Shown here in pieces: positions 57-12,986 of a stretch of DNA of 23,105 bases. Under the pieces are notes generated by a model. That model saw only the letters and a list, made by a program, of their open reading frames with translations. It did not search any database and was not told where the DNA came from. The position numbers were made by a program, and so were the translations under genes. The number at the start of each line of letters is the position of its first letter. Within the stretch, counting starts at the first letter, position 1. The stretch is from a virus, in IMG/VR virus record IMGVR_UViG_3300030333_001915, positions 1,972 to 25,076 of that record; one strand, given 5' to 3'.

Positions 57-325
57 GTAAAGCGTTCTCTATTGGTTGGTCATTATCCAAGAATGAAAAA
101 CCCTGCAAAGATTGTGGCGAACCGGCAATGACTAATTTTCGATTCCCAATATGGGAGTTTAATGGACTGTGCGCCAAATGCTTCGTGCGAAGATTACGAG
201 AAGCGGGTGTAGTAGAAGGAGATGAGGAAACAGGCAGGCCCGGAACAACACCACTTGATATGATCAATGCAAAAATGACTCAAGACGGGCAGGCTGGCGA
301 ACAGCAAAGGAGGGATTTAGCATGA
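53..325 (+). CDS. Small zinc-ribbon protein upstream of the terminase
   Basis: This 90-residue protein has two CxxC knuckles, C18/C21 (CKDCGE) and C40/C43 (CAKC), separated by 18 residues with aromatic and basic content. That is the layout of a treble-clef or zinc-ribbon fold. The C-terminal third is polar and probably disordered. GGATGGGGTGACGG lies just upstream of the ATG, and the stop overlaps the terminase ATG (ATGA at 322-325), so the two are translationally coupled. The position directly before the large terminase is where many tailed viruses place the small terminase subunit. This protein could recognise DNA or help packaging, but it has no visible helix-turn-helix, so that role is only a contextual guess. 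The family is not recognised. Confidence 0.8.
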   Translation: MSKAFSIGWSLSKNEKPCKDCGEPAMTNFRFPIWEFNGLCAKCFVRRLREAGVVEGDEETGRPGTTPLDMINAKMTQDGQAGEQQRRDLA

Positions 326-1737
326 GCAACCCCCTTCTTGACCTTACAGGCAAAGTCGATTTTGAAATGGGTCGCCGTGATTTCAAATACTTCTTTGAAG
401 ATATTTGTGGATTTCAATTAGCGCATTTCCATAATGAATGGTATGAAATGTCTGAAAAGAACAACAAGACCTGTGTTATTGCGTCTCGTGATCATGGAAA
501 ATCTGTATTCTATCGTTGCTATCTTCTATGGAAAATGGCATACAACCCCGGAACCGAGGTTCTATTCTTCTCCCACAGTCAGCATCAGTCCATTGACCAT
601 ATGGCAAAAATGGATGAAATGATAATGACTGTCCCAGCATTGCAGCACCTAAAGCCAAAGCGAGGATGGGCAAAGCAGTTATTCAAGTTCACAAACAAAT
701 CATCAATTCGTGCTATGTCTGTCGGCAAAGCGGTTCGTGGGGCGCACCCCGATATTGTAGTTCTTGACGACATATTGTCGAGCGAAGCGGCGACTCAATT
801 GAAATCAGTAGCCCAATGGTTCTACACGGCTCTATTGCCGGTTCTTCACCACACAGCACAATTGTGTATTGTTGGCACACCGTTCTCATTTACAGACCTG
901 TATTCAGAATTGAAGGGCCTAAGTGGATATGAAGTTAGAGAATACCCCGCAATCAATGAGAAAACAGGAGACCCGCTTTGGCCTGAACGATGGTCATTAG
1001 ACGCATTAAACTCAAGACGTAATGAAATGACTTCCATTGCATTTACTCGTGAGTATCTGTGCCAACCGCTATCCAGCGAGGAGAGTTTATTCCCTGAAGA
1101 AATGATTTCAAATGCCAAAGATGACTCACTATCACTATCCTATTACCCCGACCCTGATGAAAATCTGAATTATTACATTGGCTGGGACCCTGCTATCAGT
1201 CCTGATCGAAAAGCCGACTATACCTGTATGATGGTTATCGCAATGAACGAGAACCGACACAAGAGAATTATCCACGTTCATCACGAAAAAGGAATGGACT
1301 TCAGCAGTCAAATCGACAAAATCATCGAATTGAATGCACGGTTCAACCCCGTAATCATTGAGTTAGAAACAAACAATTTCGCTCTCGCATTCAATCAAGT
1401 CCTGAAGGAAATCAGTGATTTGCCAATTAAACCATTCAATATGAGCCGAATGAAGAAGGAGGCATTGATTCATACATTACAACTACACTTTGAACAGGGA
1501 CACCTCGTTATTCCTTACAATGATTCAGGCTCTACATTGAGACACATGAACACCCTCATTACCGAACTATCTACATTCACTATGCTTGAAAATGGGCGAA
1601 TGGAAAGCCTTGGCGCACATGACGATATGGTTATTGCACTTGCTCTATCCGTGCAGGCAACAAAGGAGTATCGGGACAACATCGTGATTCTTGATGCAGA
1701 AACATGGAGTAAACGATTGGGGTGGGCTGATGCGTGA
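322..1737 (+). CDS. terL: Terminase large subunit (packaging ATPase and nuclease)
   Basis: This is the motor that cuts concatemeric viral DNA and pumps it into the prohead through the portal. The 471-residue protein shows the usual two-domain order. The N-terminal ATPase has a Walker A-type loop ASRDHGKS (54-61), a Walker B strand IVVLDD (145-150) and a coupling motif IVGTPFS (183-189). The C-terminal RNase H-like nuclease has acidic residues at D289 in IGWDP, E347/E349 in IIELE, and D434/D435 in GAHDD. Length and motif order are normal for TerL and no catalytic residue appears lost. It overlaps its upstream neighbour by 4 nt and the next gene by 8 nt. The assignment rests on motifs and on the portal, protease and capsid genes downstream. 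Confidence 0.96.
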   Translation: MSNPLLDLTGKVDFEMGRRDFKYFFEDICGFQLAHFHNEWYEMSEKNNKTCVIASRDHGKSVFYRCYLLWKMAYNPGTEVLFFSHSQHQSIDHMAKMDEMIMTVPALQHLKPKRGWAKQLFKFTNKSSIRAMSVGKAVRGAHPDIVVLDDILSSEAATQLKSVAQWFYTALLPVLHHTAQLCIVGTPFSFTDLYSELKGLSGYEVREYPAINEKTGDPLWPERWSLDALNSRRNEMTSIAFTREYLCQPLSSEESLFPEEMISNAKDDSLSLSYYPDPDENLNYYIGWDPAISPDRKADYTCMMVIAMNENRHKRIIHVHHEKGMDFSSQIDKIIELNARFNPVIIELETNNFALAFNQVLKEISDLPIKPFNMSRMKKEALIHTLQLHFEQGHLVIPYNDSGSTLRHMNTLITELSTFTMLENGRMESLGAHDDMVIALALSVQATKEYRDNIVILDAETWSKRLGWADA

Positions 1738-3145
1738 TCGAATAGAAGCAATTGTAGGTGTTGAATGCCTTGTTGATGCAATACACAAAGCAGCACCATT
1801 AGCGGCAATGGCTGCACGTCAAGTCGCAGCAGGTGCGGTAGCAGATTCAGGTTCAGCACTTTTGGAAGAGGCAAAAAAGAAAGTCAAAGACGCTGAAAAG
1901 GAAACACGGAATGCCGAAGAAAACTTAGCATCTGTTGAGGAACAATCCGCACCGGAGGCTACTGTTGATGATGCGCCTCCTAAGCCCGAACAACCTGCCG
2001 AAGCATTATCGGGTTCACAGGATTCGCCTGAAGTATCTGAAGGCCAAGGAAGTCCAAGAGATAACGCAGGTGTAAGAGGAATGAAGAACGAAAACAGTAG
2101 TGCTTCGCCTGCTGAAACAGATGGTTCTGAAGCATCTGCGCCCGCAGCCGCAGAAGTGCCATTGACTCGTTCTTGGTTTGTAGACAATTTTGGCATGAGT
2201 AGTGCCGCTGTTAGTGAAATGCTAATCAAAGCAGGAAGACATGATGCTCTTGAAATTATTCAGCCTTTGATCATAGAAGAACGTAAAGCGATAGTCAAGT
2301 ATTTTGAAGGCGTATCGTTTGAGGTTGTAGAAGAAATCCCATTAGGGGATAGTGATTATGAGTATTTGAGTAAGAATAGTGAGCGATTGAGAATACCATT
2401 TCTTCAATTGGTCAAAGGTTGGTCTGATGCTGAAGATGATGAGCAACGTGAAAAGGCACTGTCCCTTTGGACAAGTCGAATCGACAAATCGACACGGCTC
2501 TCAATTCGTGAGGATGATATTCTCAAAAGGTGTGCTGAAGTAATGTGGGAACGTGGACCGATGAATGCACAGACCTTGAAGTCCTATGGTGTAGCCGCAC
2601 CATCGAAGGAAATTGCCAAATTGATTCGTTCCCATGGATTCCTATACGACATTATCAAAGCAGGTCAAGGAACCAAGTCAGATGAAAGAAGCCTATTTTA
2701 CGACATTGACCGCCCCGATGTAGTCATCAAAAACGTGGGTCGTTTGATTGGTTCATTATTAGACACAGGTGGAGAATTGGGAATCGGTCCTCGTGGCGAA
2801 CCACGTTTGTCCCTGCCGTTTTCAAGTTTGAATGCACCTGCTTATGCCAACGCTGTTAAGAGTGAGATGGGTGTGAGGAATGTTAGGGCGGAGGGGCCGT
2901 GGTTGATCGTGGAAGGTGAAGCAGCAGTCGGTAAAGCCCTTGAGTGGTCTATTCCTTCAATGAATGAGAAGCGTGATGATGCAATCATTATGAAAAGCGC
3001 AATCAGTGGGGATGAAAAGGCACAAAAAATCTTAGCATTCAATCTTGCTACTCCATATCGTCAATTAGAATTGATGAAGACATGGAATTGGTCTATTGAA
3101 ACATTTGATACTATTCTAAAGGAGGTTGTTGCTAATGGCGAGTGA
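1730..3145 (+). CDS. DNA-binding-type protein: winged helix plus LAGLIDADG-like domain
   Basis: The 471-residue protein sits between terminase and portal. The ATG at 1730 is preferred because GGGGTGGG precedes it and it overlaps the terminase stop by only 8 nt; an in-frame ATG at 1691 would add 13 residues. Residues 1-140 are an Ala/Glu/Pro-rich coiled-coil and linker region. Residues about 261-326 read like a winged helix (ILKRCAEVMWERGPM, then a recognition-helix-like SKEIAKLIRSHGF). Residues 339-415 resemble one LAGLIDADG unit: LIGSLLDTGGEL (339-350) aligns with the signature helix, followed by strand PRLSLPFSS, a helix, strand PWLIVEG and a helix. The catalytic Asp position of the signature appears to be Gly347, so nuclease activity is doubtful. 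Together these suggest DNA recognition, perhaps standing in for a small terminase. The fold call is from pattern, not search. Confidence 0.75.
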   Translation: MRDRIEAIVGVECLVDAIHKAAPLAAMAARQVAAGAVADSGSALLEEAKKKVKDAEKETRNAEENLASVEEQSAPEATVDDAPPKPEQPAEALSGSQDSPEVSEGQGSPRDNAGVRGMKNENSSASPAETDGSEASAPAAAEVPLTRSWFVDNFGMSSAAVSEMLIKAGRHDALEIIQPLIIEERKAIVKYFEGVSFEVVEEIPLGDSDYEYLSKNSERLRIPFLQLVKGWSDAEDDEQREKALSLWTSRIDKSTRLSIREDDILKRCAEVMWERGPMNAQTLKSYGVAAPSKEIAKLIRSHGFLYDIIKAGQGTKSDERSLFYDIDRPDVVIKNVGRLIGSLLDTGGELGIGPRGEPRLSLPFSSLNAPAYANAVKSEMGVRNVRAEGPWLIVEGEAAVGKALEWSIPSMNEKRDDAIIMKSAISGDEKAQKILAFNLATPYRQLELMKTWNWSIETFDTILKEVVANGE

Positions 3146-4955
3146 CGAATCAAAAAGAATGGAACGATTATTTTCGGCTATTGGCGTTGATATGGAACGC
3201 CATACCACCCCCGTTCCTGCAATGCCGTTGTTTACCAGCGGTGTTCAGGAACCCCCCCTTCTTCAGGGAATTACCATCCCTGCATTATATGCGGCTGCGT
3301 ATGAGTGTGTAGTATTGCGTTCTATATTGAATCACTTGAATGTTGAGACATTCAGAAAAGGGTGGGCTTGGAAACCTAAGTTTGTGGTCAAATGTCGTGA
3401 CTGTAATGACGAGTTCCAACAACAATTAGAGGTATGTGAGACCTGTGGCGGCGAAGTCAGAAAGCCCGACAAAGAGCAATTAGAATATGCCGACTTAATT
3501 CTCAATGATCAGAACCGAATGAAACAATCATTCATTGAGGTTCTTCGTGAAATTGAAATGGATTTGAATATCGTGGATGATGCGTATATTGTATTGACCA
3601 AAGAATACTTCATTGACCCAGCAACAAAGCAACCACAGTTTTACCGCATCAAGGAAATTACTCGTGCAGACCCAATCTTCATGCGTATTGTAGCGGATAA
3701 GCGTGGTGTCCGTGGTGGCCGTCAATACACAAGCCTTGTTGACCGTTCGTTTAGAACCAGCGACAAAGATGCAAAATGCCCTAAGACAGGAATGGCTGTC
3801 GTTCCTATTCATTACATGAACCTTGCAGGTGTAGGTGCGGGTCAGGTCTATACTGACGATGAAATTGTCCACATAAGCAAATGGTCCCCGTCAAAATTGT
3901 ATGGTCGCAGTCCCATTGCTACAATGTGGCGTCAAGTCAATACTCTCATCGCAATGGACAATTACGTTTACTCCGCATATCAGAAGCGTAGAATGCCTCG
4001 TGGAGTAATGGTCATCAAATCTTCCAATCTTGAAACGGTCGAAAGAACCGCACGCAATATACAGGAACATCTTGAGAGAGACCCGAATTACATCCCAACA
4101 GTCGGTGTTGAAACCGAATCAGGTAGAGGCGGCCTTGAGTATGTTCGTATGATGGACACCCTTGAAGAATTACAGTATATCCCAATCAAGGACGACATTC
4201 GTCAACGTATTGCAGCATTCTTTGGAGTATCAAACGTATTCATGAATGACGTATCAGGCGGTGGTTTGAATAACGAAGGTATGCAAATTGTGGTTAGCAA
4301 TAGGTCAGTGGCTTATGCACAATCCATTTACAACACAGTATTATTCCCTGCATTGATGGAGGCGTTTTCGATCACAGAATGGACATTGACTTTGAGTCCA
4401 CATGAAGAAGAAGATGAAATTATGACCCTGCGCCGAGACGAAATGGCAATCCGCAATATGATGCAAATGAAGCAGGCTGGCTTTGATGCCACGTTGAGAG
4501 ACACTACCGACAATGAAATGTTGGAGTTTGATTACAGCCAACCCGACCCACAAGAGGTAGCGGCGGCACAGGAAGCAGCAGCGGCAGAACAGCAGCAACA
4601 GGGCGGTGGTGAACAAGGGGGGGCCGTTCAGACAAGTATGGATGAATTGGAAATGACTCCTGAAATGCTATTCAAACGAACCGAGTTTACACCTAATAGG
4701 GGTGGTTCAAAAGTAATCCCTGAATCGGTAGTCACTTCAGGTGATTTACCTGCATTAAGAACAATCGGGGATAGTCAAATGGGTGAGAGAAATAGTGGTG
4801 GAGAATCGCCTCAACGCATTAAGCGAGTAGACGGCGCACCATCCATGGCTACTACGAGAGGGGACAAACGGGATGATAGGACTGCGGCGGAACGTGCTGT
4901 GGACCACAGATTAAAAGAAATGGAACGCAGGGGCGGTTCAAAGGGGCAACGATAA
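3135..4955 (+). CDS. Portal protein with an inserted zinc ribbon
   Basis: The portal is the twelve-subunit ring at one capsid vertex through which DNA enters and leaves. The ATG at 3135 is chosen because AAAGGAGG ends 9 nt before it; a TTG at 3126 lies in frame. The 606-residue protein has portal-type landmarks: YGRSPIATMW (from residue 256), a long helical region with IPIKDDIRQRIAAFFGVSNV, and a GGGLNNEGM segment (about 375-383) followed by the C-terminal wing and crown helices. Residues 87-104 hold two CxxC pairs (C87/C90, C101/C104), a zinc ribbon not usual in portals, in the N-terminal wing. The tail after about residue 470 is low-complexity (Ala/Gln/Glu runs, then Arg/Gly-rich) and probably disordered. 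It overlaps the previous gene by 11 nt. Confidence 0.88.
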   Translation: MASDESKRMERLFSAIGVDMERHTTPVPAMPLFTSGVQEPPLLQGITIPALYAAAYECVVLRSILNHLNVETFRKGWAWKPKFVVKCRDCNDEFQQQLEVCETCGGEVRKPDKEQLEYADLILNDQNRMKQSFIEVLREIEMDLNIVDDAYIVLTKEYFIDPATKQPQFYRIKEITRADPIFMRIVADKRGVRGGRQYTSLVDRSFRTSDKDAKCPKTGMAVVPIHYMNLAGVGAGQVYTDDEIVHISKWSPSKLYGRSPIATMWRQVNTLIAMDNYVYSAYQKRRMPRGVMVIKSSNLETVERTARNIQEHLERDPNYIPTVGVETESGRGGLEYVRMMDTLEELQYIPIKDDIRQRIAAFFGVSNVFMNDVSGGGLNNEGMQIVVSNRSVAYAQSIYNTVLFPALMEAFSITEWTLTLSPHEEEDEIMTLRRDEMAIRNMMQMKQAGFDATLRDTTDNEMLEFDYSQPDPQEVAAAQEAAAAEQQQQGGGEQGGAVQTSMDELEMTPEMLFKRTEFTPNRGGSKVIPESVVTSGDLPALRTIGDSQMGERNSGGESPQRIKRVDGAPSMATTRGDKRDDRTAAERAVDHRLKEMERRGGSKGQR

Positions 4956-6227: not shown

Positions 6228-6679
6228 TTGAATGGCACGACCCAGCAGCAACCCCTGAAGGTGAAATCCTAAAGGACATTTTGAAAATGGAATTGGACCT
6301 CTTGAAGTATCAACAAGAACCGACAGGAGACAATGCAGTTCCGACATTCATGGATTACGCTGGTGGTCAGCCTGTTCAGGCTGCGGGTGGATACACAACA
6401 AATCAAGTTCTACCCTCCTATGAGGATACAGCACCTAAATCTGCACCTATTAGTGAAGTTTATTCAATGCCTGCATCGTATCAAACAGGATATGATAGCA
6501 AAGGCTCATCCCTTCATATGCACATGACTGACGGCGGAACCACCAAAGGACAATACCGTGATTCAGTAGAAGATGCTATGACCAAATTGACGATGATCAA
6601 GAAGAATGCTGACCAAGGCGATATGGGCTTGATTGATGAAATCGAGGCGTTGCTCAAACAAATTGGGACCCGCCTATGA
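6224..6679 (+). CDS. Small virion-region protein, unknown function
   Basis: The ATG at 6224 overlaps the upstream stop (ATGA) and follows GGTGGTGAGTGG, so it is preferred to the in-frame ATG at 6191. The 151-residue product has a short N-terminal helix (EGEILKDILKMELDLLKYQ), a central Gly/Tyr/Pro-rich segment (YAGGQPVQAAGGYTTNQ) and a C-terminal helix (DSVEDAMTKLTMIKKNADQ). It precedes the giant gene by only 10 nt and the two are probably co-translated. Function is unknown; position suggests an internal or portal-associated protein. Confidence 0.72.
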   Translation: MIEWHDPAATPEGEILKDILKMELDLLKYQQEPTGDNAVPTFMDYAGGQPVQAAGGYTTNQVLPSYEDTAPKSAPISEVYSMPASYQTGYDSKGSSLHMHMTDGGTTKGQYRDSVEDAMTKLTMIKKNADQGDMGLIDEIEALLKQIGTRL

Positions 6680-6689
6680 GGTGGGGACA

Positions 6690-9600
6690 ATGGTAGACGC
6701 ATCAGACGATTTAATTCTCAAAAGAACAGATACTATTCTTTCAATGCTTCTTTTGAAGGAAGTAGACATACCTGCTTATTCTCAAGCAATTCAGGACAGC
6801 CCTGAAATTGCGGGTAGTGATATGGCAATAGCATCTGCATTAGGTGCTGCTGATTCCCCACCTCCTTATTCAATGAGGGATTTGAATAGTCCAATGACTG
6901 CCACCAGCATGGTAATCCCTGAAAGCATGAATGATTTTCTTTCAGGTCATTCCAAAGTGACTACCGATTATATTCAAGATTGGCCCCAAGCAAATCAAGA
7001 CAATGCATTCGGTGAACACCATCCATTTGGATTCAAATCATCTTGTTGCCCATTACTACACGGGGCTGCACACGGAGACCCCGAATATGTCCACCATATT
7101 ATGAGGGGCGTTGAGAATGATTCCGAGCATTTGAAGAATATAGCGTTGCAGGAGAAAGACAAGTCAATTGTTCCAACCACAGAAATGAATGTAGTAGATT
7201 TCCTTGGATTGCCAATAGAGAGTCAACACGACCTATATGTTCGTGATCGAAACCGCAATTCATTCCTAAATGACGAAGAATACCATGCAAATAAGCGAAC
7301 AGAATTATCTTCATCGTTTGGGATGTTGCCTATGCTATTTGGATTAGAATGGAATACTGAAGGACAGCGTAGTAATTTCATGGACCTTATTGCTCAAATG
7401 GCAGCAACTGAAGACCCAAAGTCATCGGATGCAAAACGCATCGCAAATCAATTTCAGGAAAAAGCAGGTATTTCATGGGGGCGTGCATTGAGAAATTGGC
7501 GTGAAAGATTCACCCCTATGGCATCTTGGTGGCAGCGACCACCTGACCGCCATGGCCCTACTGAACCGCACCCCGGTGGGGATTTGCAGCATTTTATGTC
7601 TCCATGGGTAATGTCTGAAGAAGGCATTTCACCTTCAATGACGTATAGTCATTGGGAACCATATCAGGCATGGGGGGGCGTTGGTCGTTCCATGAGTTCA
7701 TTGGACAGCGTAATGAGTCAGTCCTATCCTGATATTTTCAATGGCGGTTGGATGAATGAAATCCTGATCAGCATGGGTGAGGAAGAAGCAGGGACACACA
7801 ACATAGGTGGTTCACATTTCCCAAGCGCAGTAAATCAGATGGAACCTGATAATCCAATGCGGGCGGCTCTTTCAACAGGTTATGATTCTGATAATGAGTT
7901 TGAACGTAGAAGGGCTATGTGGTCTCATACTTCAAATCAACATCACCTTCACCCAAGCGAAATCTTTGGCATGGGTGGCCGTATTGATGTTCCTAATGAC
8001 GCTTTGATGATGTCGGGTTTAGGTCGTGCTTTGGCGGCTCAAACAGATATGGGTGGACCGAGAGTCGGATTTGGTAGAGAGGAACATCCGTCTTCTACCG
8101 ATGATTATTGGAATGCACATAATGAACACTTCAGGTCAGCGGATAGCCACATTTCTCGTGTTATGCAGCAAATGGCTCAAAAGGTAATTCAGCAATTTGG
8201 TCCTGAAGTTATCAACCCCATGGGTTCTGATGACCCAATGCAACACGCTATTTGTAGGGGCAATCTTCAACAAATTGCTGCTGCTGCCAATCACGCTTTG
8301 CTAAGAATGAATATGGGTGAATCTTACAGGAGTATGGCCCCCGACCAATCTATGAAGAATGTAATGGGTCCTGTTGGTCCGGTATCGCCTGATTCACACG
8401 CAATTGTTCCACCTGTATATGTGAGTGGGGACACTGATGCATGGGGGCATGAAATGCCAGCCAATTTGACTTGGAGGTTTGACCCTGCTCAAGGAGGAAT
8501 ATCCTTCAACATTACAGATTCACCATTTACACTATTGCAGCGAACAGCACATGAAAACCATGTGAAAGCAATATCCCCTTCATTGGTTGGGCCAAATATG
8601 TCTAATCTACCACCAAAGGAAAAGGATGTGAATGCCATATCAGCAGCGGATTCATTTGGATACGCCCCTATACAATCGGGTTCATTGCAGAAGGCAGATG
8701 ATTACGAGCCAACAGGTATTTTTGAAACCATGATTAAACCAGCACATACTGTATATGACCTTGATGACCTATCTACGATCAAAGGATTTAGTGGGGATTG
8801 GGTTGTTCAGAAGATGCCTGAAGGTAAACGAATGCTCATCAAGAAAGAAAACAAGAGAGTAGACCCACATGATTTGCCGCCTAAAATCAAGAAAGCGTTG
8901 AAAGAACGAGAAGGCGATTTTACCATTGATGCATACGTCAAAGGTGATATGCTCAATGTAGTAGATTTGTTAGTTCACAAAGGCACTGATTTGCACATGG
9001 AACCATTAGAGGATAGGTTGAATGCATTACGCACACTATACCATTCAGATGAACATATCCATTTCCCTATGCCTAATTCATGTATTACAACGGATGATAT
9101 TGGACTGAAAAAGGCCGTTGAAGAATTGGGTGGGGCAGGGTTATTGATTCGTGATGCTACATCTACTTTCATCAAAGGTAAGGAGATGCATCCAAAATGG
9201 GTTCATTTCGCTGACGAGGAAATTGCCAAGCATACACCATATGGGCCATTGCCTGAAGTGATGGTAAAAGGAAAGGACATTGTATTGGAATACCCCGGAT
9301 TGTTGAAGCCTGTAATCGTCAAAGGAGAGTTTGATGGTAGATACTCAATGTCCATTGATGAATACGAAGGAACAACGACCCTTATTAAACACGCACGAAC
9401 TCAACTCAAACTTTGGGGACCTGTTGCTATTGAATTATTGAAAGAGGGCGCAGCCGCAGGTGGGGGAACAGTATCATCAACAACAGCAGGAACTTCAAGC
9501 CCAATGCATTCAGCACCTGCGAAAAAGAAGCGACCCCGTAAGCGTGTGAAGATGGAAGAAGACCTTATCCTCCGTGCGCCTGAATTATTGGATGATAGTG

Positions 9601-10181
9601 GTGATCGAGAAGATACTGCTGAAATGATGGTCCACGCACGAAAAGTTCTGACTACTCGTGAAGAGGCAATGTCGTCTGATGAGTTATGCACTGAAGTAAA
9701 GGGATTAACGCCAAAGATGATCGAGGTGTATGGTCCTGAATATGGCATTGAAAGGACTGAAGAAGGAGACAAATGGACAGTCAATGAAGCAATAGATGAC
9801 GACATCATTGAAAACTTCGCATTCCCACGAATGAACCGTGCATCGCCTGACGGTGGTGCTTGGTCAGGTATGCAGGCAGACATTACAGCACCAAGGGGAC
9901 CTACTGAATTAACCAACGATGAAGCAACCACATTCGGTGCTGAAACTGATGATGACGATATGGAAGAGGCTGAAAGGCCCCCACAACCGTATCATTTGCA
10001 GATTAGGGTTGACCCTGAATTGGATGGGGATGCAACACTTGATGTAGAAATGGGTCGTGCTAAACTGAATTACCCATTGAGAAGTCCTCAAGAACAGATG
10101 GTTGAGGAAGAAATTGAAACCAAGGTAAATGCTACCGATGACGTTGTTGATGACGAAATCGAAGAGGATTTATTGGCTTGA
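6690..10181 (+). CDS. Giant protein with divergent DNA-ligase-type nucleotidyltransferase domain
   Basis: The start at 6690 follows GAGGTGGGG; an upstream in-frame start at 6633 lies inside the previous gene and has no such site. The protein is 1163 residues. Residues 1-670 are unlike any family I recognise and are rich in Met, His, Trp and Pro. Residues about 672-900 resemble the adenylation domain of ATP-dependent DNA ligases: WVVQKMPEGKR (K708; motif I KxDGxR with one extra residue and Asp to Glu), IDAYV (about 746-750; motif III), then VVDLLVHKGTDLHMEPLEDR (757-776), very like the ligase FDLLY..G.DL...PL..R segment, and GAGLLIRD (815-822; motif IV with its Glu replaced by Ala816). Motif V lysines appear lost after W837. 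A Lys/Arg patch (KKKRPRKRVK) and an acidic tail follow. It sits where MuF-like or ejected proteins often lie, between portal and protease. Ligase activity is doubtful; DNA or nucleotide binding is the safer inference. Confidence 0.72.
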   Translation: MVDASDDLILKRTDTILSMLLLKEVDIPAYSQAIQDSPEIAGSDMAIASALGAADSPPPYSMRDLNSPMTATSMVIPESMNDFLSGHSKVTTDYIQDWPQANQDNAFGEHHPFGFKSSCCPLLHGAAHGDPEYVHHIMRGVENDSEHLKNIALQEKDKSIVPTTEMNVVDFLGLPIESQHDLYVRDRNRNSFLNDEEYHANKRTELSSSFGMLPMLFGLEWNTEGQRSNFMDLIAQMAATEDPKSSDAKRIANQFQEKAGISWGRALRNWRERFTPMASWWQRPPDRHGPTEPHPGGDLQHFMSPWVMSEEGISPSMTYSHWEPYQAWGGVGRSMSSLDSVMSQSYPDIFNGGWMNEILISMGEEEAGTHNIGGSHFPSAVNQMEPDNPMRAALSTGYDSDNEFERRRAMWSHTSNQHHLHPSEIFGMGGRIDVPNDALMMSGLGRALAAQTDMGGPRVGFGREEHPSSTDDYWNAHNEHFRSADSHISRVMQQMAQKVIQQFGPEVINPMGSDDPMQHAICRGNLQQIAAAANHALLRMNMGESYRSMAPDQSMKNVMGPVGPVSPDSHAIVPPVYVSGDTDAWGHEMPANLTWRFDPAQGGISFNITDSPFTLLQRTAHENHVKAISPSLVGPNMSNLPPKEKDVNAISAADSFGYAPIQSGSLQKADDYEPTGIFETMIKPAHTVYDLDDLSTIKGFSGDWVVQKMPEGKRMLIKKENKRVDPHDLPPKIKKALKEREGDFTIDAYVKGDMLNVVDLLVHKGTDLHMEPLEDRLNALRTLYHSDEHIHFPMPNSCITTDDIGLKKAVEELGGAGLLIRDATSTFIKGKEMHPKWVHFADEEIAKHTPYGPLPEVMVKGKDIVLEYPGLLKPVIVKGEFDGRYSMSIDEYEGTTTLIKHARTQLKLWGPVAIELLKEGAAAGGGTVSSTTAGTSSPMHSAPAKKKRPRKRVKMEEDLILRAPELLDDSGDREDTAEMMVHARKVLTTREEAMSSDELCTEVKGLTPKMIEVYGPEYGIERTEEGDKWTVNEAIDDDIIENFAFPRMNRASPDGGAWSGMQADITAPRGPTELTNDEATTFGAETDDDDMEEAERPPQPYHLQIRVDPELDGDATLDVEMGRAKLNYPLRSPQEQMVEEEIETKVNATDDVVDDEIEEDLLA

Positions 10182-10399: not shown

Positions 10400-10411
10400 C
10401 CATTTATATGG
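10400..10411. promoter_or_regulatory. Candidate bidirectional TATA element
   Basis: CCATTTATATGG is A/T-rich and nearly palindromic. Read on the minus strand it gives ATATAAAT and on the plus strand TTTATATG, both close to the archaeal TATA consensus. A start about 25 nt away would give a leader of about 28 nt with a ribosome site for the minus-strand zinc-ribbon gene, and a nearly leaderless message for the protease and capsid genes starting at 10435. No clear purine-rich BRE flanks it, so the call is tentative. Confidence 0.4.
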
Positions 10412-10434
10412 AAAGACATTATTCTCGGTGGTCA

Positions 10435-11778
10435 ATGGCGAACCAAATCATGGCTACACCTGCTATCAGAACCACAGGGTTCTCGGCGGTTGGTAGTGAT
10501 TTTATTCTAAAGGCGTCAGAAGGTAATGACCTATTCATTGCAGGATACGCAAGTGTGGATATGGTAGACAAGCAGGGAGACCGAATCCCAGCATCTGCAC
10601 TATCAAAGGCATTTAGCAAGTTCATGGGCAACAAGGCATTCCGAAATGTCCAATTGGCACACAGCGGCATTCAAGTCGGTGAAGTCGTGGACAACTACAC
10701 AGATTCTGAAGGACGAGTGTGGAAATCAGAAGTGGATGAGCATGGACTCTTTGTCGTATGCAGAATCCGTGACGACATCCAAAAGGCTCGTGAAGTTCAG
10801 AAGCAGGTTCGCAATGGCGACCTGAAAGCATTCTCAATCGGTGGTCAAGCACTCTTTAGAGTGACTAAGACAACCCCTGAACATGGGACACACAGGGAAA
10901 TCACCGATTTAGAACTGCACGAGATTACCTTGTGCAAAAAGGGCATCAACCCGGAGGCCCGATATACAATCCTTAAGATGGACCAAGGAGATGAAGAAAT
11001 GAGCGCAAATAGTGAGACATTGACCGAAATAAGAGACAGCCTAAGCCGTGTGCTAAAGCATATCGAGACCGAAGAACCTGCACCTGTGGAAGAAGCAGTA
11101 GTTAAAACTGATCAGCCACAAGTAGATGAAAGAGGTGCGATTGCATATATCGACACGCTTGAGAAGTTTGCACATGAGCAGGGAATTAACCTCGATGCTC
11201 TCCGTGGACACTTCGGTCTTGAGAAAGCATACCTACAAGAAGGAAGCGGCGGATACAGCCACCGTGGACAGGGCGACATGGAAGGAAGCGGAGAATCTGC
11301 ATCTGAACCATCCTACCCTGCATTGCCTTCTGCAAGCGGCAATCAGAACGTGATCAAGCAGACAGGTAGCCGAATGAACATGAATGCACCTTCAGGAAAC
11401 AAGAACGTCATCAAGTCAGGACTCAACCTTACCCCTGAATCCCTTGAGCGAGGATACCGTGCTTACGCATCCATTCGTGATGAAGAAGCAGTCAAGTCCC
11501 TCGTTGAAAAGGAATGGAAGGAACGCTATGATGTTGAGACCCAGCAGGCATTGGAAGTTCAGAAAGCCAATGACTTCGGTGGTCAAATCCAAGCACTACG
11601 CCAAGAGATTTCATCATTGAAGGCAGAAAATACAGATTTACAGAAGTCCGTAGTCGCTGAACCAGCAACTACCAGCGTTCGTGTTCCTACACATGAGGAA
11701 TACCAAGCAATGGGCAATGGCCTTGACGGATGGATTGCGGCAGAAGATTTGGCACGGAGGGCCTTGAGAGGCGAGTAA
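10435..11778 (+). CDS. Prohead maturation protease fused to a scaffold-like domain
   Basis: The ATG at 10435 follows CGGTGGTC; an upstream in-frame ATG at 10408 lies within the TATA-like box. The 447-residue protein opens with an HK97-type (peptidase S78 family) prohead protease. FIAGYASVDMVDKQGDRI (34-51) is the typical first strand, H76 in QLAHSG and S134 in KAFSIGG are the likely catalytic pair, and E163 in LELHEITLC is the likely third residue. These proteases digest the scaffold and capsid N-arms from inside the prohead. Residues from about 185 onward are long, polar and helical, ending in a coiled coil (IQALRQEISSLKAENTDLQ), as in scaffold domains. Such protease-scaffold fusions are known in HK97-like viruses. 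It directly precedes the capsid gene. Confidence 0.9.
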   Translation: MANQIMATPAIRTTGFSAVGSDFILKASEGNDLFIAGYASVDMVDKQGDRIPASALSKAFSKFMGNKAFRNVQLAHSGIQVGEVVDNYTDSEGRVWKSEVDEHGLFVVCRIRDDIQKAREVQKQVRNGDLKAFSIGGQALFRVTKTTPEHGTHREITDLELHEITLCKKGINPEARYTILKMDQGDEEMSANSETLTEIRDSLSRVLKHIETEEPAPVEEAVVKTDQPQVDERGAIAYIDTLEKFAHEQGINLDALRGHFGLEKAYLQEGSGGYSHRGQGDMEGSGESASEPSYPALPSASGNQNVIKQTGSRMNMNAPSGNKNVIKSGLNLTPESLERGYRAYASIRDEEAVKSLVEKEWKERYDVETQQALEVQKANDFGGQIQALRQEISSLKAENTDLQKSVVAEPATTSVRVPTHEEYQAMGNGLDGWIAAEDLARRALRGE

Positions 11779-11799: not shown

Positions 11800-11812
11800 A
11801 AAAGGAGATGAA
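11800..11812 (+). promoter_or_regulatory. Strong ribosome binding site of the capsid gene
   Basis: AAAAGGAGATGAA precedes the capsid gene. GGAG ends 9 nt before the ATG at 11817. The ATG inside this element (11808) is in frame but abuts the GGAG, so 11817 is the better start. The same 13-base string occurs before the next gene. Confidence 0.7.
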
Positions 11813-11816
11813 AAAT

Positions 11817-12986
11817 ATGAGTGGATCAAGAGGATACCTACGAACAATTGAGGATATGGAACGCCTATACTACGGTGCAGGCGCAGGACAGAACGCTTGG
11901 GCATACAGCGGAACAGACCTATTGAAGGCTGATTCCCCATTGATGTCCACCACAAGTGGAACATATCAAGCAATCTTTGGCCGAAAAGTATGGTCGCAAC
12001 TGAATCAAGAGTTTAACGCATTCAGTATCATGCCTAAGAAGCCATGGGAGAAGAGTGGTTGGAGAGTCGTGACTGCAAAGCCTGATGCAACAAAAGGCGG
12101 CGGAGTCCCTGAAAATGCAACTCTACCGGACACAACCAAGCCAACTTTCCTACACGTCAACGACAAACCACGCACAGTGGCACACACGTTTGACCTAACA
12201 GAAACAGCAATGTTCCTTGCAGACAAGGATGATGGTCTTGGCGATGCTCGTGCAGTCATGAAGATGGAAATGGCAAAGCACCACGCTGAAACAATCAACA
12301 AGATGCTTCTGAAGGATATTCAGTATCGCAGCACCACTTTGAATGATTTCGATTCTATTGATCGTATCACTTCTTCACCTAAGATTGAGAAGGCTTCAAC
12401 ATTCGGTGATGTAGCAGCAGGAGACCACGACCTATACAACGTCAGTCGCCCTGAAGGTGCAACACAGCAATGGTATGATGCAAATGTCGATGCAGGTGCA
12501 GCAGGCGCAGAACGCCCACTCACTTTGAACATCCTTGACGGAATGTTCCGAAGCGTATGGGAACGTGGTGGTCAGCCTAAAGTCATCCTAACAGGATATG
12601 ATACTCTTGAGAAGATTCAGCAATTGCTACAACCACAGCAAAGATTCACAGAAATGAAGAAGGTAGTTCCCGGCGTCAATGGCGTAAAGGGTGTTCCCGG
12701 TATGGAAGCAGGATTCATCGTGGCAACCTACAATGGTGTCCCGATCATCCCATCCAAGGACGTTTACAGTGAAGGTGGGTCCGGCATCAGCCGTCTATAC
12801 TACCTCGACACTGACTACACTTACTTCTGCACAGCAAAGCCAACTCTCTACCACGAGTCAGGAATTGAAACAGGAGACCCGTTCGGTATCAACCGTCTTG
12901 GTCAGATGGGAATGTTCCACACAATGGGCAACCTATGGCAACTGTTCTTCGGCGCACACGGGAAGGTGAGAGACCTAAGTGCTTGA
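11817..12986 (+). CDS. Major capsid protein, HK97 fold
   Basis: This 389-residue protein follows the protease, as expected for the shell subunit. An N-terminal arm (residues 1-60) precedes an E-loop-like segment (about 77-112, WRVVTAKPDATKGGG and onward). A strongly helical stretch at about 143-166 (ARAVMKMEMAKHHAETINKM) fits the long spine helix of the P-domain. A later segment, GMFRSVWERGGQPKVILTG, matches the A-domain style seen in capsid proteins of archaeal head-tail viruses, and the C-terminus has IVATYNGVPIIPS followed by strands. There is no long scaffold domain in the protein itself, consistent with scaffold being supplied by the gene upstream. The strong ribosome site fits high expression. 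Assignment is by fold pattern plus position. Confidence 0.88.
   Translation: MSGSRGYLRTIEDMERLYYGAGAGQNAWAYSGTDLLKADSPLMSTTSGTYQAIFGRKVWSQLNQEFNAFSIMPKKPWEKSGWRVVTAKPDATKGGGVPENATLPDTTKPTFLHVNDKPRTVAHTFDLTETAMFLADKDDGLGDARAVMKMEMAKHHAETINKMLLKDIQYRSTTLNDFDSIDRITSSPKIEKASTFGDVAAGDHDLYNVSRPEGATQQWYDANVDAGAAGAERPLTLNILDGMFRSVWERGGQPKVILTGYDTLEKIQQLLQPQQRFTEMKKVVPGVNGVKGVPGMEAGFIVATYNGVPIIPSKDVYSEGGSGISRLYYLDTDYTYFCTAKPTLYHESGIETGDPFGINRLGQMGMFHTMGNLWQLFFGAHGKVRDLSA

Follow-up and report, generated by a model that had tools for sequence, protein, structure and literature searches.

The window, by which we mean the whole 23,105-nucleotide stretch analysed here (positions 1,972 to 25,076 of IMG/VR record IMGVR_UViG_3300030333_001915), carries terminase, portal, prohead protease and major capsid protein genes of a tailed virus and, between portal and protease, a gene for a 1163-amino-acid protein in which a domain of DNA ligase type is embedded:

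322 to 1737, plus strand: terminase large subunit (phrog_38, E 1.1e-73)
3126 to 4955, plus strand: portal protein (PF04860, E 7.9e-14; phrog_18178, E 1.7e-55)
6690 to 10181, plus strand: 1163-amino-acid head-module protein with the pseudo-ligase domain (ATG start at 6690)
6867 to 8609, plus strand: N-terminal region of that protein, mostly helical, residues about 60–640 (predicted structure, most blocks at pLDDT 80–95)
8703 to 9239, plus strand: predicted nucleotidyltransferase (pseudo-ligase) domain, residues 672–850 (AF2, Foldseek, VIA, PF01068, hhalign)
9252 to 9452, plus strand: beta-sheet and helix element, residues 855–921 (hhalign, predicted structure)
9606 to 9800, plus strand: predicted winged-helix domain, residues 973–1037 (three helices and two strands, pLDDT about 80)
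10408 to 11778, plus strand: prohead maturation protease, S78 (PF04586, E 1.2e-10; phrog_23555)
11808 to 12986, plus strand: major capsid protein (SU10_MCP, E 3.8e-9; phrog_24667)

A longer TTG-initiated frame of the 1163-residue protein begins at 6633; its relatives match the ATG start at 6690, and the whole protein is conserved across all full-length loci, at about 1100–1200 residues each. Residues about 60–640 yielded no homologue, a PHROG search of positions 6690–8660 returned no match, and comparison of the whole protein with Pfam and PHROG gave nothing meaningful beyond PF01068. Neither resource matched a MuF domain in the protein, an absence that is weak evidence and leaves room for one. 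When the full-length model was used for a fold search, the match list was filled by the ligase domain and residues 1–670 were barely covered; that part has no known relative and may hence be where the protein exerts its main function. Towards the C terminus, residues 973–1037 probably form a winged helix, as judged from the predicted structure, and a BFVD fold search gave weak winged-helix or DNA-binding matches at ranks 23 and 26, not assigned to a location in the model. The best BFVD structural match of the whole protein is A0A516LT18, an unnamed viral protein of 827 residues (E 4.4e-10).

Our sample of relatives, the window family, comprises at least 80 homologues of about 1150 residues from marine virus contigs, and one scan of viral contigs returned 500 matching stretches for the protein. 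Gene order is the same in all 18 family loci tested: portal, small genes, pseudo-ligase gene, protease and major capsid protein. One homologue, with its surrounding head module, sits in a Poseidoniales single-cell genome, and the lineage is therefore tied to Marine Group II hosts. A tblastn search of 50,697 phage records with either the domain or the whole protein gave no match.

The original prediction, read from the letters of the window, was that a repurposed and possibly inactive ligase domain lies at 8703–9390, which corresponds to residues 672–900. The strings on which it was based occur in the order given within the frame 6690–10181 (WVVQKMPEGKR, residues 704–714; IDAYV, 746–750; VVDLLVHKGTDL...PLEDR, 757–776; GAGLLIRD, 815–822), and their agreement with ligase motifs exceeds chance, as PF01068, the structural comparisons and a profile alignment to intact ligases (hhalign, E 6.5e-23) all indicate. 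Taken alone, the PF01068 (DNA_ligase_A_M) match is weak: on a 270-residue excerpt it falls short of the cut-off (18.8 bits, with 26.2 required; E 0.0014), and the same profile also matches 7 of 11 relatives. An AF2 model of the domain built from 63 relatives (pLDDT 85.7, pTM 0.81) takes the nucleotidyltransferase fold that had been anticipated. In Foldseek its top PDB structures are DNA ligases only (best E 4.8e-9), and VIA places PDB DNA ligases at Z 15–17, the best at Z 17.4 with an rmsd of 2.8 over 166 residues; the full-length model gives the same ligase matches for the domain, at Z up to 15.7. Because AF2, Foldseek, VIA and the full-length model agree, a DNA-ligase nucleotidyltransferase fold for residues 672–855 is well supported, and we consider it very probable that these residues are a degenerate DNA ligase core. 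Searches of the PDB by sequence, with the domain or its profile, gave only a sub-threshold Sulfolobus ligase (E 0.63) and an ankyrin match that was discarded as an artefact.

A search from a divergent member of the family (L078) reached two 828-residue proteins (L171 and L172) at 31% identity, in which the motifs KYDGMR, DGEL, HVFDIM, EGVVIK and WIKWK are all present and PF01068 matches at E 1.1e-29. More than 300 relatives of these proteins were found. They are ligases of 820–870 residues (L172:5311-7791 and relatives L175–L254). In 24 of 24 loci tested, their gene falls between those for portal and protease, which, like the major capsid protein, are homologous to those of the window, and we refer to them by this portal slot. 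In 33 of 33 sequences motif I keeps its Lys, Asp, Gly and Arg, motif III its Glu, motif IIIa its Phe, motif IV its Glu and motif V both of its Lys. Among contigs of 68–97 kb, 11 of 12 encode two PF01068 ligases, the portal-slot enzyme and one of about 510 residues elsewhere in the genome, and a family B polymerase, often split, was likewise found in 11 of 12. Two ligases and a family B polymerase agree with magroviruses as described in the literature (PMC10768690, PMC12999244, PMC10160649). For a group A magrovirus, mention is made of an ATP-dependent ligase gene adjoining the prohead protease gene (PMC7318539), and the portal-slot ligase gene as such was thus already annotated.

Alignment of the window family to the motif-intact portal-slot ligases places the motifs of the window as follows:

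8808 to 8831, plus strand: degenerate motif I, QKMPEGKR, residues 707–714, with Met709 (8814–8816) at the nucleophile position
8928 to 8939, plus strand: degenerate motif III, DAYV (canonical DGE or DAE followed by L)
8958 to 9017, plus strand: motif IIIa segment, VVDLLVHKGTDLHMEPLEDR, in which the Asp and the D..R pair are kept
9135 to 9155, plus strand: degenerate motif IV, AGLLIRD (canonical EGxxxKD)
9198 to 9212, plus strand: degenerate motif V, WVHFA (canonical WxKxK)

The string WVVQEKYDGMR of the related ligases aligns its catalytic Lys with Met709 and its invariant preceding Glu with Lys708, which rules out the extra residue that had been proposed for motif I. Since position 709, a Met, and not Lys708 is the nucleophile position, the residual chance of activity is smaller than the original prediction had allowed. 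In the family, position 709 is Lys, Met (as in the window) or Arg. The motif I Asp of KxDG is kept in no row. The motif III Glu is replaced by Tyr, Val or Phe in 63 of 63 aligned rows (Tyr in the window), and the adenine-stacking Phe of motif IIIa by Val, Ile, Met or Leu in the same number. At motif IV the Glu is lost in the window, where Ala816-Gly817 stands and Ala816 had correctly been named; other family members often carry an acid at 817 and Glu is not fixed, with a register uncertain by one, while Arg821 and Asp822 are invariant. The absence of the motif V lysines is likewise borne out: Trp837 is invariant, the first Lys survives in 1 of 59 distinct rows and the second in none. The hhalign alignment passes over about 100 residues that belong to the OB-like region in the portal-slot ligases, and the OB domain has apparently gone from the window family.

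From established ligase chemistry we conclude that such a domain should be incapable of the ligase reaction. ATP binding, which had been offered as one possible role, appears unlikely because motif III lacks its Glu, motif IIIa its Phe and motif V its two Lys. It is improbable, in our estimate, that the domain still binds nucleotide or carries out another nucleotidyl or phosphoryl transfer, with Lys708, or Lys709 in relatives, as an unorthodox nucleophile. A motif I Lys was indeed met in relatives, Lys709 occurring in a KPxGxR context, with the canonical KxxGxR spacing, in 41 of 59 distinct rows and Lys708 in most others, and Gly712 is invariant and Arg714 frequent, as such a reaction might lead one to expect; but the window itself has Met709, neither Lys is invariant (708 is Lys in 72 of 81 rows), the catalytic residues of motifs III (Glu), IIIa (Phe) and V (the Lys pair) are lost throughout the family save for the single first Lys of motif V, and at motif IV the window has no Glu and its relatives do not have it consistently. 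Compared with archaeal and eukaryotic ATP-dependent ligases (Pfu Lig, Thermococcus Lig and human Lig1, Lig3 and Lig4), the degenerate core shares the adenylation-domain fold at Z 15–17 but has no nucleophile, motif III or IV Glu, motif V Lys or recognisable OB domain, and is fused into a 130-kDa head-module protein.

The presence of a motif-intact ligase in the same slot of related viruses, which the original prediction had missed, bears on where the degenerate core came from. Profile comparison of the window family with the portal-slot ligases gave a probability of 99.5 and E 6.5e-23, with 29% identity over 242 columns, and tblastn between the two groups reached E 3e-18. The family profile scores the portal-slot ligases at 67–94 bits and the ligases of about 510 residues at 6.4 bits or less. 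In a tree, unrooted and with long branches meeting, the window family and the portal-slot ligases stand apart from the latter. The two groups share the gene slot and its neighbours, the nucleotidyltransferase core and the beta-sheet and helix element (855–921), whose homologous counterpart in the intact enzymes follows the OB-like region; they differ in that the portal-slot ligases retain catalytic motifs and OB-like region and have a shorter N-terminal part. We therefore read the two as sharing descent, on the strength of these sequence comparisons. That the domain was captured independently, from a replicative ligase or a host, is very improbable: it would accord with the N-terminal 670 residues, for which no resemblance to the motif-intact ligases could be detected (hhalign aligns from residue 676 on), but not with a common slot flanked by homologous portal, protease and capsid genes, with scores far above those to the ligases of about 510 residues, with homology that continues beyond the OB-like region and takes in the element that follows, or with a host order in which no PF01068 protein was found. 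An origin from the ligase of about 510 residues or from the host is accordingly not favoured. The length of A0A516LT18 fits that of the portal-slot ligases.

Omega within the domain is 0.015–0.035 (six pairs estimable), below that of the rest of the protein in 4 of 4 pairs with both values estimable; for pN, the domain has the lower value in 8 of 8 pairs. Such strong purifying selection points to a repurposed pseudo-ligase and not to a decaying gene, and structure prediction, profile homology, motif loss and gene order together uphold the earlier idea that a marine archaeal virus has a repurposed, inactive ligase domain within a protein of its head region. A set of polar surface residues (Q707, P710, G712, D759, D775/R776, R821/D822, S825–F827, K829, H834 and W837) has stayed under strong selection, and within it the charged and aromatic residues R821, D822, K829, H834 and W837 follow the old active-site face.

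Because related viruses keep a motif-intact ligase in the same slot, these data suggest that an enzyme which joined DNA and was associated with the virion has become a part without enzymatic activity that probably binds DNA. We infer this direction from how widely ligases conserve the motifs, the tree being unrooted. The window lineage would have lost its nucleophile, the residues that handle metal and phosphate, the Phe for adenine stacking and, apparently, an OB domain, while keeping the fold and a polar surface. Gene position, size and conservation suggest that the protein is built into the head or portal region, possibly as a component of the portal vertex. Retention of the fold, conservation of former active-site residues and the predicted winged helix suggest in turn that the ligase fold and the C-terminal winged helix act as a non-covalent module that holds viral DNA, either packaged or newly ejected. 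That part of a ligase which recognises a nick or end may survive in the dead core, and sealing would be handed over to the NAD-dependent ligase of the host. A virion location and ejection would follow from gene position, fold and the predicted winged helix; no cultured virus is known to us. Points against DNA holding are that the window family apparently has no OB domain, which helps ligases to grip DNA, that many invariant residues serve the structure, and that the protein may have its main function in residues 1–670.

The same observations might be accounted for by a pure structural scaffold, the ligase fold serving as a protein–protein interaction module in the head or portal vertex that touches neither DNA nor nucleotide. 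Loss of all ligand-contacting motif residues together with the OB domain, a location among head genes and strong constraint without catalysis agree with a scaffold, but it sits poorly with the conserved residues on the old active-site face and with a predicted winged helix downstream in the same protein, and we regard it as unlikely. For the DNA-holding head module with sealing left to the host, taken as a mechanism by itself, the chances seem to us roughly even; the reading that we favour overall, a dead ligase core in a head-module protein of Poseidoniales tailed viruses that acts by holding DNA, we consider fairly probable. Within it, the computation shows the fold, the homology, the loss of catalytic residues, the selection, the synteny and the ligase type of the host, and from these we infer presence in the virion, DNA binding and the hand-over to the host enzyme.

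A candidate host partner for sealing is present in the order. Among 30 Poseidoniales genomes (G018 and 29 others), 29 encode an NAD-dependent ligase and none has a PF01068 ATP-dependent ligase. Ten window-family contigs of 25–108 kb gave no PF01653 match and no PF01068 match besides the pseudo-ligase domain, with the limit that PF01068 barely detects the pseudo-ligase and very divergent ligases could escape it, intact ones scoring above 98 bits. In most of these large contigs a family B polymerase is not detectable. The Satyavativiridae, described as viruses without a replisome of their own and with a Poseidoniales host (PMC13108676), are a candidate assignment that fits the window family. A wider scheme would have Poseidoniales tailed viruses share a virion-packaged portal ligase system, in which magrovirus-type members introduce an active ATP-dependent ligase into a host equipped with an NAD-dependent one alone, so that the genome, once ejected, is sealed or closed into a circle, while in the window lineage the pseudo-ligase clamps DNA ends or nicks and the host ligase seals them; this we consider speculative and rather doubtful.

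A parallel is found in ANMV-1, a tailed virus of methane-oxidising archaea that encodes an 866-residue PF01068 ligase directly after its portal gene. By profile comparison this ligase is similar to the portal-slot ligases over the core and OB-like region (E 8e-11); it differs from the degenerate core in its intact motif I (KKFDG) and motif IV Glu, and scores 11.4 bits against the pseudo-ligase profile. Since ANMV-1 parallels the portal-slot ligases in this way, portal-adjacent ligases may be a recurring arrangement in archaeal tailed viruses. A search of viral_contigs found no ANMV-1 relatives, and Pfam searches of the C-terminal pieces of an intact ligase, the ANMV-1 ligase and the window protein gave nothing above chance. 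In ANMV-1 (KP703175, L280:1913-5800), the gene annotated as a ‘MutT-like phage hydrolase’ encodes a portal protein (PF06381, E 3.2e-22), with the ligase directly after it.

To our knowledge, catalytically dead ligase cores under strong selection have not been known from tailed viruses, and our literature searches found no such case. The pseudo-ligase is common in surface-ocean archaeal viruses and is placed where proteins that accompany the genome are expected. Now that one slot is seen to hold an intact enzyme in some viruses and its dead counterpart in others, what a head-module ligase does becomes testable, and the pair poses the question of what a viral genome needs at packaging or entry, and who provides it. 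Hundreds of marine viral genes listed so far as uncharacterised are also given a corrected annotation.

Several further features were seen in the window and its relatives. The window portal (3126–4955) has an inserted, zinc-ribbon-like CxxC...CxxC motif at residues about 80–110, and the same insert is present in a magrovirus-type portal (L172:60-1622). A chaperonin (Cpn60/TCP-1) and two nucleases (ERCC4 and PD-(D/E)XK) are encoded by a related virus of 97 kb, together with a putative HMG-CoA lyase, so read from its N terminus (loci L090:2156-3799, L091:260-1000, L090:16884-17978 and L094:13103-13996). In L094:5715-15162 (G002), about ten adjoining genes of varied length share a near-identical N-terminal tag, M-T-A-F-D-x-A-W-x-L-[LVI]-K, which could be a targeting or cleavage signal, and the window gene at 53 (53–325) begins with MSKAFSIGWSLSK, possibly the same tag.
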